Source of the DNA: Pedobacter indicus
Lineage (GTDB): Bacteria > Bacteroidota > Bacteroidia > Sphingobacteriales > Sphingobacteriaceae
Reading direction: 5' to 3'
Assembly (NCBI RefSeq): GCF_003449035.1
Contig: NZ_QRGB01000001.1
Span: 1,054,001-1,118,000, forward strand
DNA length: 64,000 nt
A program made the translations under genes and the position numbers. Below are positions 8,376 to 48,241 of this stretch, piece after piece (position 1 is the stretch's first letter; the number at the start of each line of letters is the position of its first letter). The notes under the pieces are model-generated. The model did not search any database. It saw only the letters and a program-made list of their open reading frames with translations, and had not been told where the DNA came from.

Positions 8376-9638
8376 TTAATACTTAAATGCATTTTTCATT
8401 AACTCCATTTCGTTTCTTGGAATACCCAGATCCGTCGCTATTTGTTCCCATTGGGCTACATTCTGACCAATTGTATTGATAATAGCATCGGCCTCTTTTT
8501 CTTTTAACCGAAAATATAGAGCTACTTCTCGTACAAGGTCAAAATCCAACGCATTATCGGTTTCTGAAATATTAAGTTTCAAGCCAGTACCATTCGGGGT
8601 TGGATTAATATCATAAGCCGGCGAAAGTATCCAGCCCGAATCCCTCAAAAGGAATCCGTGATTGCGAAGATGATCGTCGGTATTTGATATGGCTATATTA
8701 AAAACAATGCGGCTCCATAATTTTTTTAGATCGTTATCAACGTTAGTTCCATTCTGCATCAAAAATTCCACAAGCTCCAAATAACTAACCCCATCTTGAT
8801 AGTCCGTTCCATCAGTATATCCTAATAAGGTCATTGCAGAAGCAAAGTGAATACGGGCACTAGCGTTGTTACGATCAAATCGTTGTGTTAGAAATGTATG
8901 TTGATGGTGTGAGAATTTTTGTATCCTTGACGGTGCCATTTCAATACCAGATTGAATGGCAAGCCGATAGGCAAGCATTTCCCAAGCGCCCATATCCTGA
9001 CGATCATTTTGACTTGGGAATTTAGCAATCCATAAACTTCCTTCAGTATCCCGAATGTTTGCCTTGGGTCTTGCACCTCCCAAAGAAGATCCTGGTGCCA
9101 TTAGCATATTAAGCCATTTTAGGTATTCCGGATTTTCTGAGGCATCTTCTTTTTCTAGTTGTAAGCTGGCAAATTCAAGATCCCGAAGTGCAGCAAAAGG
9201 TGGTGCGGCCATCGCTTCATCATCATTTAAAAATGCACCATCGGACGTTGTTTTAAAACGAAGTCCTCCCATTCTGTTATTATCATAAACTCCGAGTAGG
9301 TAATCCGATTCCATTAAAGTGTTAGGCCGGCGTTCTTCTTTCCTAGCTTTAGCAGCCTCTTTACGCATCATTAAAACTCGACCCCATCGATCAGGTGAGG
9401 AATCCAAGAAAATACCGAAACTGGATTTCTCATCAGTCAGGTACTGGGCTCCTTCGAATAATTGTAAATCTGGATCTATGATCTGGGCATAATCCGATTG
9501 TAACCATTCTTTAGCATATTCAAAGGAAAATATTTCTTTTCCTCTGGATGGCGTAGCATATAAACTCCCCATTAAGAATGGATCTTCAATTCCATCCCAA
9601 TGCGCATATACCAATATTTCTTTTCGTTCCTGTGTCAT
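8376..9638 (-). CDS. hipA: HipA-family serine/threonine kinase toxin
   Basis: HipA toxins phosphorylate a translation target (GltX in E. coli), and HipB neutralises them. The 420-residue protein has the N-terminal subdomain, a Gly/Ser P-loop GSSLGGARPKAN around residues 180-195, a nucleotide-binding Lys in LWIAKFPSQND, and the catalytic stretch NTDDHLRNHGF (Asp321-Asp322-His323). The metal-binding part PAYDINPTP follows. The start codon overlaps the stop of the HTH gene in TAATG, so the two are translationally coupled. The pair lies directly after tRNA-Glu on the opposite strand, a usual site for acquired modules. Its target in this organism is not known; GltX is an inference from E. coli. 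Confidence 0.93.
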   Translation of the reverse strand: MTQERKEILVYAHWDGIEDPFLMGSLYATPSRGKEIFSFEYAKEWLQSDYAQIIDPDLQLFEGAQYLTDEKSSFGIFLDSSPDRWGRVLMMRKEAAKARKEERRPNTLMESDYLLGVYDNNRMGGLRFKTTSDGAFLNDDEAMAAPPFAALRDLEFASLQLEKEDASENPEYLKWLNMLMAPGSSLGGARPKANIRDTEGSLWIAKFPSQNDRQDMGAWEMLAYRLAIQSGIEMAPSRIQKFSHHQHTFLTQRFDRNNASARIHFASAMTLLGYTDGTDYQDGVSYLELVEFLMQNGTNVDNDLKKLWSRIVFNIAISNTDDHLRNHGFLLRDSGWILSPAYDINPTPNGTGLKLNISETDNALDFDLVREVALYFRLKEKEADAIINTIGQNVAQWEQIATDLGIPRNEMELMKNAFKY

Positions 9639-9958
9639 TATTTCTTGGTATTTTTTGGACCACGTTCTTTAACGGTTAGATCGGCATCCTGTATTTTTCT
9701 ACCCAATGTATCATCTTTGGCCAAAAGCAATATATCCTTCTCCAATCCTAATACTAATAAAACCTGGAGAATAATACCTAAAGAAATTGAAGGACTTCCT
9801 TTTTCTAGGGAAGAAAGTGTAGGACGGGAAATCCCTGCCCGCTCTGAAACCTGACCCATCGTTAGTTTCCTGCGTAAGCGTGCCAACTTGATATTTTCTC
9901 CCACTGCTTGTAAAAGCTTCCGGTTTTTAGGTAGTAGTATAAGGCTATTTCTAGGCAT
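9638..9958 (-). CDS. hipB: HipB-like HTH antitoxin/repressor
   Basis: The 106-residue protein has an N-terminal XRE-type helix-turn-helix (MGQVSERAGISRPTLSSLEK, about residues 35-54) and a charged tail ending in lysines. It is the first gene of the pair and overlaps hipA by one base. In the family, HipB binds HipA and represses its own promoter. A -7 box TATATTTG (9977-9984) and an imperfect palindrome (9994-10009) lie just upstream, as expected for autoregulation. Confidence 0.9.
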   Translation of the reverse strand: MPRNSLILLPKNRKLLQAVGENIKLARLRRKLTMGQVSERAGISRPTLSSLEKGSPSISLGIILQVLLVLGLEKDILLLAKDDTLGRKIQDADLTVKERGPKNTKK

Positions 9959-10822: not shown

Positions 10823-11247
10823 TATCGTTACCTGCAATCCTCCCTATACCAAACCATTAACTCCCCCAGCTAACGTTTTGCATTCCATTATTTCCTTAAT
10901 TAGTTGAGCTCTTTGCAAGACCGATTTTCAAACTGTTGCCCTTTTGGGAGCACGTGCGCAATTGGAACTGCAATTTAAAAGTGGAGACGTTTTATGCGAC
11001 CAATTTTTCAATTGACTTATATATTAATTCCCTCGATGTCTTGTGTGACGTAGACGCTTTCCAACTGAGTCAGATACCTAAAAAGAAAATCATAGCTAAA
11101 TTTTGAGCTCAACCCGATTTATTTCGTATTTCTTTCAAATTAAATTTTAATCCATCGAGTACACCCGTTTTTCCCTTGATTTTTACTAAGACGGATATTA
11201 AATGGAAGTTAGCCGTAGATTAAACGGAGATCAATCGTGTATACACC

Positions 11248-11302
11248 TCTAAAGTCCGAGGAATGTCCGAACAATGTCCGACTAAAGTCCGTCTGAAAGT
11301 AG
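11248..11302 (+). repeat. 11-bp tandem repeat (xxxAAxGTCCG), locus 1
   Basis: Four consecutive 11-mers end in GTCCG: TCTAAAGTCCG, AGGAATGTCCG, AACAATGTCCG, ACTAAAGTCCG (11248-11291), and a decayed fifth, TCTGAAAGTAG, follows. The period is close to one helical turn. The same family occurs at 47977-48043 in the other orientation. The array is about 200 bp upstream of the flavoprotein gene. Confidence 0.75.
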
Positions 11303-11495
11303 AAGAAAAATAAAGCAAAATAGGCGCAATTATACAAGAAATGCGACGGTTTTTGGAGTCGTCAGCTCAGGTTTAACAGGCGATAAGGTGAGAGTTCATT
11401 TTTAACTTAAAGTAAAATGTAGCGGCCGGAGTTAGGGGTGACTGCGACCGGAATTCCGTATATTGAACAAATATTTGTACACAACGAAATGGCTT

Positions 11496-34536: not shown

Positions 34537-35141
34537 TTAAAATAGTTTCAACTGAGCATCTGAAATTCCTTTCCCGAGGAATGGATAATCACCGACAACT
34601 TCGTATTGATTAACATGGGGGCGTGTGGTACTCCTTGTTGCGGACAATCTTTTTCTTAAAAATACAATTCGATTGGCGTCGCTATCAGCATGATATCGCA
34701 TGTTCTCCCTATAAGGCCAAACTCCGTTAAACTCGTTTTCAGGAATCCGCCTCGCAATTGTCAGGTGACCCTTTTTGATAAAATTAAGTGAATAACCTTT
34801 AACGGGCGTTAAAGCTGGTCGAAGGTGCATTTGTAAATATTGAGGTATCCTTGAGAATTGTTCTTCGTTTTCTACATGAAGATAAATCGTGCTAGTTTCG
34901 TTCTGGAAACTACCGAAATCAGATAATGGGAAAGATTTGAACAGAGTTTGGCTGAGTAAGGAAGAAATTGCTCAGGGCGGTGAACTGACAATTGAAGCTT
35001 CGTCCACGCCAACTCAATATGGAGCAGATAATATTTGGATTTCTTCGGTAGATTGACAAAAAGACATGTGTCAGACTTGGTTAAAAATGGTGCTACCTGA
35101 AAATGGATACATAACGGACTCCATTCGCATTTCATCCGCAT
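34537..35141 (-). pseudogene. Frameshifted gene of unknown function
   Basis: Two overlapping minus-strand frames both look coding. The upstream one begins MRMKCEWSPLCIHFQ at 35141 and runs to about residue 60. The downstream one carries SDFGSFQNETSTIYLHVENE and then PENEFNGVWPYRENMRYHAD to a stop at 34537. The switch lies near 34960, where the downstream frame meets a TGA. Joined, they would give about 190 residues. No family recognised. A broken gene is the simplest reading, but two chance frames cannot be excluded. Confidence 0.35.
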
Positions 35142-35305
35142 TTTGATGTCAAAATCCGAATATAATGTAGATATAATCCAAATTGTTTCTCATATGATTT
35201 TCACCAAGGTTCGCACAGGTTATCAAAAAGGTAAAACGTAGGATTATAGAGGGATATCTCGTAAATTGCATTTAATTTAATCATTGATAACTAAAGTAGC
35301 AGAAT

Positions 35306-35797: not shown

Positions 35798-36955
35798 TTA
35801 TTTTATCTTTTGGATTACGAAAACAATCTCTTTATAATGATCTTTTTCGTACAATACGCCTATCTTTTTCTTGTTCACAAGAACGATGTCCGAATAGGCC
35901 GAATATGCACCGTCATAACCTTCAGGGCTTTTCGCGATGGTTTCATTGAAGTACCAGGTTTTGCCACCATCTTTCGAAAGGCGTAAGGTTAAATTATCGC
36001 GATTGTTTTCGTCAGCAGCATTGATATGGGCTAAAATAAACTTCTTGCCTTTCTTCCAGGAAAGTACTGAGCCTTGATTGATCGGATCGGGCAAGTTAGG
36101 GTCTGCCTTAGAGCTGTCCCATGTTTGTCCTCCATCGGTCGAAATGGATATGATTCGTTGTTTAGGGGTAAGTCCTTGATTTCTTGATGACATGTAAACA
36201 GAATTATCTCCGATCTGTGCTGCCGTAGATTCGTTAGTTCCTGGGTAATGAACGTTTTCGCTTAGCTTAAACGTTTTGCCATGATCATCTGAATAGTATG
36301 CATGAGCAATCCAGTCTTTGTTTTGAGGCTGCGGATCACCTGCGTTATGATTTGCGGCAATGTAGATGCGTCCTTTATTGGGTCCCGAAACAAATTGGAA
36401 GCCATGTCCAGGTGTGTTAGCATAAGTACGCCAGTCTTCCTCGAAATTATAGGCCGAGTTGATTTGTGGTTGTTTAGGACGGTGTGCCTGAGTGGTGATA
36501 TTGACTGGTTCTGACCAACTCTCACCATTATCTTCTGAGGTAATATACCACAGTTCGCGCAAGCCTGTGCCTTTTCGAACTTCACCCTCATGGTTGTTTC
36601 CGGTATTGTAAAACAGGAATATGCGACCATTGGGATATGCCGGGTCAAGCAAGTCTACGACCGGAGCTGCATTTCCTGCCTGAAGATCATCATAATCTGC
36701 TGCTACATGAAGTGGACCCCAAGTTTTCCCATCGTCTGAACTGATTTTATAGACAATGTCAACATTGCCATAGTCGCCTGCATGATCTACACGACCCTCG
36801 GAGAATGCGATAAGGTCACCGTTTTTGTTTTTCACGATAGCTGGAATCCGGTAGCTGGCATAACCATCATCTCCAGACTTGAACACTGTTACTTCTTGAG
36901 CTCGTGCCAGCATAACGCTCGCAATAATCGTAAATGTTAGAATTAATCTTTTCAT
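35798..36955 (-). CDS. nanH: Exported sialidase (GH33)
   Basis: This 385-residue enzyme cuts terminal sialic acids from glycans. A signal peptide ends near MLARAQ. The arginine motif YRIP (Arg36) is at the start of the propeller, and several Asp boxes follow (SSDDGKTWG, SEDNGESWS, SDDHGKTFK, STDGGQTWD, SKDGGKTWY). The length suits a single-domain GH33. It is the last gene of the nan operon, so released sialic acid would feed the transporter and lyase encoded upstream. Confidence 0.95.
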   Translation of the reverse strand: MKRLILTFTIIASVMLARAQEVTVFKSGDDGYASYRIPAIVKNKNGDLIAFSEGRVDHAGDYGNVDIVYKISSDDGKTWGPLHVAADYDDLQAGNAAPVVDLLDPAYPNGRIFLFYNTGNNHEGEVRKGTGLRELWYITSEDNGESWSEPVNITTQAHRPKQPQINSAYNFEEDWRTYANTPGHGFQFVSGPNKGRIYIAANHNAGDPQPQNKDWIAHAYYSDDHGKTFKLSENVHYPGTNESTAAQIGDNSVYMSSRNQGLTPKQRIISISTDGGQTWDSSKADPNLPDPINQGSVLSWKKGKKFILAHINAADENNRDNLTLRLSKDGGKTWYFNETIAKSPEGYDGAYSAYSDIVLVNKKKIGVLYEKDHYKEIVFVIQKIK

Positions 36956-46835: not shown

Positions 46836-46876
46836 GTTTTATTTAATTTTTTGCAAAGTTTAAAATAATACTTTAC

Positions 46877-46929
46877 TTTTGAAAGTATATATATTAAAAA
46901 TAATAGTTCCCTTTTTGAAACTATATATA
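46877..46929. promoter_or_regulatory. Direct repeat TTTTGAAA(G/C)TATATATA, candidate HxlR sites
   Basis: Two 17-bp copies differing at one base (46877-46893 and 46913-46929) lie 36 bp apart between the divergent nitroreductase and HxlR genes. The first copy begins inside the palindrome TACTTT-TG-AAAGTA (46874-46887). Position suggests binding sites for the regulator. Confidence 0.55.
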
Positions 46930-47350: not shown

Positions 47351-47734
47351 TTATTTTGTCTCGATCACAAATGATTGCATCTCCTCAATAATAGATTTCG
47401 TGCCCTTGAATTTATAAACGTCACAAAAAGCGAACGTCTTGCCATTTTCCAATGTAAACTGACCACTTGCAGAACCCTCTTTCCCATGCGTAATAATGGT
47501 AGACAGTTCGAATTCTGCCATCGCTAATTTCTTTCCTTCATCCAGTTCCTTAAGGATTTCGTCTTTCCCCGTCAGGGTTTTATGGCCAACCATTTCCCAT
47601 CTGATATTCTCCGATATATGCTGAATAATAAAATCGGTATCCCCGTCAGGGAAGGCAATGTTAAATTTTTTTAAAAATTCTCGCTTCGGAGAGTTTCCAC
47701 AGTCCGTTTTAATTTTAATTTTTGTCATTTTCAT
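47351..47734 (-). CDS. SnoaL-like / NTF2-fold protein
   Basis: A 127-residue protein of the nuclear transport factor 2 superfamily: REFLKKFNIAFPDGDTDFII, WEMVGHKTLTGKDEILKELD, and SASGQFTLENGKTFAFCDVYKF. Many members have no assigned reaction. The direct repeats just upstream (47741-47776) suggest a regulated gene. It is alone on its strand. Confidence 0.82.
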   Translation of the reverse strand: MKMTKIKIKTDCGNSPKREFLKKFNIAFPDGDTDFIIQHISENIRWEMVGHKTLTGKDEILKELDEGKKLAMAEFELSTIITHGKEGSASGQFTLENGKTFAFCDVYKFKGTKSIIEEMQSFVIETK

Positions 47735-47740
47735 GTAGCC

Positions 47741-47776
47741 TTTTTAACCGGTTACCTTTACTTTTCAACCGATTAT
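47741..47776 (-). promoter_or_regulatory. 21-bp-spaced direct repeats CTTTT(T/C)AACCG(G/A)TTA
   Basis: Two 15-bp copies with two mismatches (47741-47755, 47762-47776) lie 7-42 bp before the SnoaL-like start. The 21-bp step is two helical turns, so a dimeric regulator could bind both on one DNA face. The first copy contains AACCGGTT, itself a palindrome. Confidence 0.5.
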
Positions 47777-47976
47777 CTTAATTATATCTAACACCTAACC
47801 AAAATATACAGAAATCCTGCCAGAACATACTTTCATTAGTAATTTCGTTTTGGTTAAAACCTTTCCTAAATCGAAAGTCGATAAACGCCTGTTTTTCCGA
47901 TCGCGACCGTCCCAAAAAAGTATGGATCTGAAGTAACTCTGTGCAAAATACCGATAACTTTTGCTTCACTATTAGA

Positions 47977-48043
47977 CGGACATTAGTCGGACTTAGTTCG
48001 GACATTGTTCGGATATTAGTCGAGTGAACCCGACTAATATCCG
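47977..48043 (-). repeat. 11-bp tandem repeat, locus 2, with perfect hairpin
   Basis: Read on the plus strand, four 11-mers follow each other: CGGACATTAGT, CGGACTTAGTT, CGGACATTGTT, CGGATATTAGT (47977-48020). The last one plus CG pairs perfectly over 13 bp with CGACTAATATCCG (48031-48043) around an 8-nt loop. Reverse-complemented, the units equal the xxxAAxGTCCG family at 11248-11302, and AACAATGTCCG is identical at both loci. Confidence 0.8.
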
Positions 48044-48241
48044 TTTGACATACGACTAACATACGTTAAATATCCGTGTTAGATAAGAATGCGATAAAAA
48101 CATCAGTAGAATTTGTGCTTTTTAACTTGAAGGAAAGTGTAACAGGTGCTAATGAAACAAATCGAAGAAAAAATCGTTAATCGAGGGTAAAGGTTTTAAA
48201 TGTTTTTAAATTTACTTTTCTAATTTATTCAACGAAAGTCA

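Follow-up and report, generated by a model that had tools for sequence, protein, structure and literature searches.

Between positions 47843 and 48136 on the minus strand of the window, by which we mean the whole 64,000-nucleotide stretch of Pedobacter indicus DNA analysed here, lies a repeat element (element 2), delimited by matches to its two end boxes and by a match to the core model of its family (47958-48086, E 2.3e-31). Its middle part is the tandem array reported in an earlier note on this DNA. From 47977 onward, four 11-bp units follow one another with direct-repeat spacings of 11, 11 and 11, and TRF (period 11) calls a tandem array at 47971-48022. A perfect 13-bp inverted repeat is formed by CGGATATTAGTCG (48010-48022) and CGACTAATATCCG (48031-48043) around the 8-nt centre AGTGAACC. 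Repeat search and TRF thus bear out the earlier description of 47977-48043 as four 11-bp units with a perfect 13-bp hairpin and an 8-nt centre.

Read in its own orientation, element 2 carries its right end box, TTTAACCAAAACGAAA, at 47843-47858 on the minus strand (genome G000:C1:1101843-1101858). The strong arm of GTCCG-type 11-bp units, which is the reported array, occupies 47971-48022 (minus strand), and the dyad region with the perfect inverted repeat spans 48010-48043, the dyad itself falling between 48026 and 48027. On the other side, a weak arm of inverted, more degenerate 11-bp units of the ACGACTAACAT type extends from 48027 to approximately 48082 (minus strand), followed by the left end box, TTTAACTTGAAGGAAA, read on the plus strand at 48121-48136 (genome G000:C1:1102121-1102136). 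Imperfect tandem duplications of 36 bp (46862-46929) and 21 bp (47740-47779) are found near element 2.

The window holds a second copy of the family, element 1, at 11129-11416 on the plus strand (core model match 11181-11309, E 5.8e-31), with end boxes at 11129-11144 (minus strand) and 11401-11416 (plus strand), each with one mismatch, and a strong arm at 11249-11300 (plus strand; TRF, period 11). As previously proposed, the two loci belong to one family, are inverted with respect to each other and have an identical AACAATGTCCG in common (11270-11280, +; 47999-48009, -). If one mismatch is tolerated, AACAATGTCCG has 6 matches against 1.37 expected, a number reached in 0 of 100 shuffles, indicating that the array is beyond chance. 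Two weaker matches to the core model lie elsewhere in the window: one at 35103-35179 (7.5 bits, E 0.14), resembling a decayed array of degenerate 11-mers, and one at 35832-35908 (20 bits, E 1.7e-5).

Searches of all four contigs of the genome (3.47 Mb) recognised at least 15 copies of the family to which the two elements belong. A core model built from sequence only recovers the identical 15 loci; as the core is a palindrome, seven of these match on both strands. Our family-wide model search used strict filters and scored at most 22 candidates per genome, which makes the counts of own copies (at least 15) and of array-bearing genomes (at least 36) lower bounds; since all 22 candidates scored in the P. 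indicus genome matched, more degenerate copies may exist.

When the copies are aligned in one orientation, they display a common layout in which a dyad is flanked by two inverted arms of about 4-5 units of 11 bp each, with end boxes outside, and they are dispersed round the chromosome. The strong arm contains CCGAACAATGT-like units in which GTCCG is mostly retained, while the weak arm is inverted and ACGACTAACAT-like. The end boxes, TTTAACTnnAAnGAAA-like on the right and its inverse on the left, constitute terminal inverted repeats. At least 11 of 13 letters of the right box are present in 14/15 copies, and of the left box in 13/15 copies, three of these in direct orientation, where the best chance match in the same windows is about 8-10 letters. 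The box sequence TTTAACTNNAANGAAA has 11 exact matches in the 3.47 Mb, all 11 at copies of the family; tolerating one mismatch raises the count to 47, of which 22 lie at elements (hand count), and the reversed pattern then gives 37. Nine copies with both boxes measure 228-300 bp from box to box, a typical element being roughly 290 bases long, and the copy next to a DUF6266 gene (L002, see below) is without recognisable end boxes (9/13 letters). Inspection by eye of the 12 nt outside the boxes revealed no evident target-site duplication. At two copies (L007 and L014), terminator-like hairpins with A/T tracts directly adjoin the outer side of the right end box, a context that insertion may favour.

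Across the 15 copies, 67.0% of the cells in the arms are paired; the figure for shuffles is 67.6%, and covariation as high as that observed arises in 397 of 500 shuffles. Conservation in the arms concerns the units and not base pairing. Together with a unit spacing of one helical turn, this conservation would fit protein binding, and judged from the sequence the 11-bp units look like helically phased DNA-binding sites.

A gene partner for these elements is suggested by the gene-linked copy, L002, which adjoins a downstream DUF6266 gene (Pfam PF19781, E 8.4e-36). In relatives, 11 of 29 array loci, each the best locus of its genome, contain a DUF6266 gene within the ~3 kb fetched. Among 151 genomes of the bacterial family, arrays were detected in at least 36 and DUF6266 in 68; taking both counts as drawn on the same 151 genomes, PF19781 occurs in 33/36 array genomes versus 35/115 others (Fisher p 4e-11, a value that is too small because the genomes are related). 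The association of arrays with DUF6266 is beyond chance. Three array genomes (G005, G125 and G147) have no PF19781 match, and the array matches of G147 are strong. One locus from the sampled genomes (L196) shows no difference from a Sphingobacterium haloxyli locus over the 2 kb compared, from which the bacterial family is probably Sphingobacteriaceae.

The link is also visible when starting from the protein. A set of 37 DUF6266 genes retrieved solely by their protein (30 loci, best match per genome, tandem and near-identical genes included) includes 14 with 11-bp periodicity (p<=0.01) and 15 with 10-bp periodicity upstream, compared with 0/35 downstream for both, while the control lags of 9, 12 and 13 give 2/37, 0/37 and 0/37 upstream. 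In named array-bearing genomes, 11-bp periodicity is found upstream of 16/28 DUF6266 genes and downstream of 0/27. Overall, 107 DUF6266 matches yielded 88 unique genes after those below 150 bits and duplicates were dropped, with sequence of sufficient length upstream of 87 and downstream of 81. The array units differ in sequence between DUF6266 gene lineages, and array class clusters on the DUF6266 tree, with 0/500 shuffles as low, a clustering that near-copies inflate. At many DUF6266 genes (L225-L254), a direct array of GTCAAA-like 10-bp units additionally lies near a TAnnTTTG-type promoter. Two DUF6266 genes of Pedobacter hiemivivus are accompanied by an element whose unit and end boxes match those of the dispersed copies (by eye). 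The third DUF6266 gene of P. indicus has no clear upstream array. In S. cellulitidis and a Bacteroides MAG, DUF6266 is present and the upstream DNA seen is without the dispersed unit; no DUF6266 gene lies in the fetched array loci of S. cellulitidis (0/5), the Bacteroides MAG (0/5) or Pedobacter (0/8).

If each DUF6266 gene owns a repeat family, its array unit should be scattered in its own genome, and this prediction held for 3/3 further units, chosen for having a clear array, besides the family of element 2. The units of the second P. indicus DUF6266 gene (1.502 Mb), AACAGTCCTCT, gave 35 matches compared with 10 for a reversed-pattern control; judged by eye, 12 loci showed the inverted layout again and were taken as a second family of this genome. 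Similarly, the units of the DUF6266 gene in a sister genome (G001), AAGGTTCAAAC, gave 16 matches at 9 loci (control 0), and the TTACG-type units of a DUF6266 gene in a genome of another genus (G130) gave 31 matches at 7 loci (control 0). Four DUF6266 genes, two from P. indicus, one from the sister and one from the other genus, thus each have their own array unit, scattered in its genome.

In each of these cases the gene accompanies a single copy. In the stretches examined, gene-linked copies number 1/15 in the family of element 2, 1/12 in the second P. indicus family, 1/9 in the sister and 1/6 in the other genus, where the search for DUF6266 covered 6 of the 7 array loci. In 3/3 families the box of the family is present at the gene-linked copy, either beyond the array or on its margin (20/22, 29/31 and 24/25 letters; best scores elsewhere in those loci 14, 18 and 14). 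At dispersed copies the family box is found in 7/11 (missing in 4/11) for the second P. indicus family and in 5/5 for G130, and is clear in 4/8 and weak or missing in 4/8 for G001, these boxes having been picked after viewing alignments and that of G001 including part of the array unit. A cognate gene beside one copy with the repeat scattered elsewhere, the arrangement that defines a REPtron, is therefore observed here, S. cellulitidis and the Bacteroides MAG excepted.

One pair of copies documents how an element may have moved. L011, at 3.33 Mb, and L013, which follows uvrB at 0.37 Mb, have 71% identity along 287 nt, the similarity ending at the right box. The left flank of L011 contains a decayed uvrB 3' end (score 42, compared with 29 for the best of 1000 shuffles and 15-24 for 13 other elements), while the right flanks of the two copies are dissimilar, with 293/500 shuffles scoring as high. 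These sequences are most simply explained if L011 derives from the copy behind uvrB, with flanking DNA carried along on one side. With the core masked, this is the single pair of similar copies at E<1e-10, and the remaining copies are alike at most in box stretches (E 1.6e-4 or weaker), so that one clear event speaks for mobility, only one pair being alike outside the core.

The sister genome G001 contained no detectable copy of the family of element 2, where the earlier note had looked to conservation in sister strains; the arrays that it does carry are of another family, linked to the DUF6266 gene of that genome. Behind the orthologous uvrB of the sister no element was seen by eye, and because the region differs by more than the element it does not provide a clean empty site. 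At the gene-linked locus of G001, a neighbour is 60% identical (101 aa) to a gene near the P. indicus copy L010, and at one further array locus a flanking gene has a 34% match to a gene at a P. indicus array locus; with DUF6266 set aside, flanking genes are common to both genomes at just these two loci, so most of the nine sister array loci are without common neighbours. Near L010 we noted, by eye, an old-yellow-enzyme-like frame with a relative beside the DUF6266-linked array of G001 (L322) and a match at the DNA level too, possibly marking a shared hot spot. Also, the window contains a HipA-like gene (8376-9958) with a small HTH gene (by eye), and the DUF6266 gene L287 of G001 follows a similar HipA-like gene.

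Taken together, the scattered copies and the DUF6266-linked arrays point to an undescribed gene-and-repeat partnership in bacteria. Element 2 is probably a gene-less copy of a dispersed intergenic element belonging to such a partnership, which would be REPIN/RAYT-like in organisation and built from unrelated parts. As set out in two papers on REPIN/RAYT systems, those repeats are dispersed intergenic palindromes with a cognate gene by one copy and an own repeat type for each gene, several types may coexist in a genome, gene-less copies dominate, and REPINs are defined as 20-50 nt palindromes preceded by a GTAG-type tetranucleotide (PMC8266576, PMC8049555). Measured against those accounts, the elements described here likewise have a gene-linked copy, gene-specific units, several families per genome and mostly gene-less copies. 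They differ in numbers, with 7-15 recognised copies per family compared with ~69 or more in E. coli (PMC8266576, PMC8049555), and in their parts: the partner is DUF6266, without obvious catalytic residues, and a search for the Y1/HUH transposase of RAYT (PF01797) gave 0 matches at E<=0.001 in the P. indicus genome and was positive in 5/14 control genomes. Inspection by eye for GTAG-led short palindromes found no conserved GTAG at the arms, and the elements are 228-300 bp long with 11-bp arrays. Unlike a REPIN hairpin, their arms are without covariation, although the element 2 copy can fold a short hairpin.

Mechanistically, the 11-bp units would be adjacent binding sites for a family-specific protein, with one site in each helical turn. 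This protein may be encoded or controlled by the DUF6266 locus, being either DUF6266 itself or a partner such as an HTH_17 regulator. The gene-less copies would then spread slowly within the genome as a non-autonomous population, as REPINs do with a RAYT gene. A broader proposal, which we advance tentatively, is that DUF6266 could be the core of a new Bacteroidota gene-repeat system, in which a private 11-bp iteron code upstream of the gene would be read by its product or by an HTH partner, the reader would maintain or propagate the gene-less copies, and code and protein would co-diverge between species, all without a known transposase. The unstudied DUF6266 family thereby gains a DNA partner and a testable hypothesis. 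If true, this would be a gene-repeat partnership of parts unrelated to RAYT/REPIN and an independent case bearing on the persistence of small repeat populations in compact bacterial genomes; with DUF6266 in 68/151 family genomes, the phenomenon may be widespread. No mention of DUF6266 or PF19781 was found in open-licence literature, and, going by titles and the first lines of abstracts, none of the open-licence papers listed for 11-bp or dispersed repeats in Bacteroidota or Sphingobacteriaceae deals with these elements.

DUF6266 itself offers few clues to function. The only invariant residues in an alignment of 18 sequences are M, G and W, so that DUF6266 does not look like a catalytic transposase, and its N-terminal half is basic (by eye). 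A single-sequence AlphaFold prediction had a pLDDT of 31 and was discarded. Searching PDB sequences with the DUF6266 profile returned an FN3 domain only (E 0.26), and no relatives were found among PHROG, plasmid, phage or viral-contig sequences. Upstream of DUF6266 genes, HTH_17 (PF12728) scored over the Pfam cut-off in 7/9 proteins, picked by eye; the corresponding small genes lie 0.3-0.8 kb upstream at L231, L232, L239, L242, L243 (on the opposite strand), L247 and L253. LytTR-like and histidine-kinase-like proteins were also seen by eye upstream of some DUF6266 genes. Among the ORFs inspected, no HTH_17 gene was noticed beside the two gene-linked arrays of P. indicus. The HTH_17 regulator is a candidate reader of the array, not a demonstrated required part.

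These upstream proteins are also what would be expected if the arrays were the operators of a regulon, with a factor of the HTH_17, LytTR or OmpR-type response-regulator kind controlling DUF6266 together with the genes near the dispersed copies. 11-bp direct repeats suit response regulators, the arrays do sit upstream of DUF6266 genes, and the 60% match between neighbours of the sister gene-linked copy and of L010 also speaks for this reading. The gene context of the dispersed copies does not fit promoter operators. The earlier note had read the GTCCG strand as pointing toward a gene start about 200-240 bp away, in one locus that of a putative flavoprotein gene and in the other that of a putative SnoaL-like gene. 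Its distances are roughly right (243 bp to the ORF start at 47734; 163-199 bp to the TTG/ATG at 11463/11499), but they largely reflect the right side of the element itself, whose end box reaches to 153-194 bp from the dyad in 14/15 copies. With ORFs judged by eye, a gene start lies ahead of the GTCCG strand in only 8/15 copies, the other 7/15 facing a gene end or the 3' side of a tRNA, and the rule fails on this count. Flanking genes of the two P. indicus families, counted at 25/27 copies (omitting L001, which has no clear left gene, and the gene-linked L285), are convergent in 5, divergent in 9 and co-directional in 11, and the convergent share of 5/25 is no different from 25% (p 0.65); copies are thus not confined to positions upstream of gene starts. 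In addition, flanking genes are common to P. indicus loci at just two of the nine sister array loci, and operators do not usually have end boxes or long inverted arms. With orientation random and the family undetected in the sister genome, the operator idea fails the check that the earlier note itself had proposed, and we regard operators of a regulon as unlikely.

Another alternative is that the elements are ordinary MITEs of some insertion sequence, the link to DUF6266 being the by-product of one old capture. MITEs are short, gene-less, intergenic and dispersed and have inverted ends, as do the elements described here, and the end boxes in 13-14/15 copies and the one in-genome duplication speak for such an origin. 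However, the DUF6266 link recurs with different units in several genera, and the 3/3 further units tested are dispersed as well. Apart from one pair, the copies are alike just in core and boxes, so core arrays are kept while most spacers are dissimilar, unlike in MITEs, and the linked gene is not transposase-like. The variation in length, from 228 to 300 bp over nine copies with both boxes, also counts against this reading, and no parent transposase with these ends was seen in a transposase survey that covered PF01797. Ordinary MITEs are therefore quite improbable. BOX-type elements of streptococci, in which end modules enclose internal repeats that vary in number, have a similar plan; here the units are 11 bp long, inverted and linked to DUF6266.

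Very improbable in our judgement are chromosome-organising or centromere-like sites, at which helically phased iterons would nucleate a protein filament with a role in structuring or segregating DNA. In plasmid R1, the parC iterons, which form two clusters, likewise consist of 11-bp units, one per helical turn, as do PhoB-type tandem boxes. The pitch, the ~4-5 units per arm and the dispersal round the chromosome speak for such sites. Unlike parC iterons and PhoB-type boxes, our elements have inverted arms on either side of a dyad and are scattered over the chromosome. Against chromosome-organising sites, the units differ between the two families of one genome and between sister species, and the positions of the copies follow no obvious pattern (by eye).

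The earlier hint of a structured RNA or terminator hairpin, to which the perfect 13-bp hairpin of the element 2 copy and its fold z-score (GTCCG strand, -2.5; opposite strand, -1.0) lend some appeal, was rejected as highly implausible, as folds, consensus folds, Rfam and pair counting proved unsupportive: compensatory pairing is absent across the 15 copies, their consensus structure is weak, and Rfam 15 returned tRNAs only in the 64-kb window and nothing above the gathering score, bar one tRNA, at 5/15 loci.

Returning to the favoured gene-repeat partnership with DUF6266, arrays of comparable appearance also occur outside the relatives of P. indicus. Our pattern search of 84,980 species returned 101 stretches, 57 in Roseobacteraceae/Paracoccaceae, 29 in Bacteroidota and 15 elsewhere, and the same pattern matched 1 stretch in viral contigs. 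Among the matches listed, those from Roseobacteraceae/Paracoccaceae (among L043-L143, for example L063 and L055) are direct arrays of GTCCGAYRAAA-like units, and several of these alphaproteobacterial arrays, again among the matches listed, stand immediately upstream of start codons, for example a murB-like start. No DUF6266 was found in Pseudoruegeria, the one such alphaproteobacterial genome tested, and we therefore treat these arrays as probably an unrelated multi-copy motif; tandem 11-mers can meet the search pattern by convergence. A further group of arrays, of ATGTCCGATAA-like units, is spread from Bacteroidota to Parcubacteria and Nanoarchaeota MAGs (L051, L079, L121, L128, L123, L136, L141, L137 and L134), and several of them lie directly behind genes with a frame ending in an HTH-like domain (by eye).
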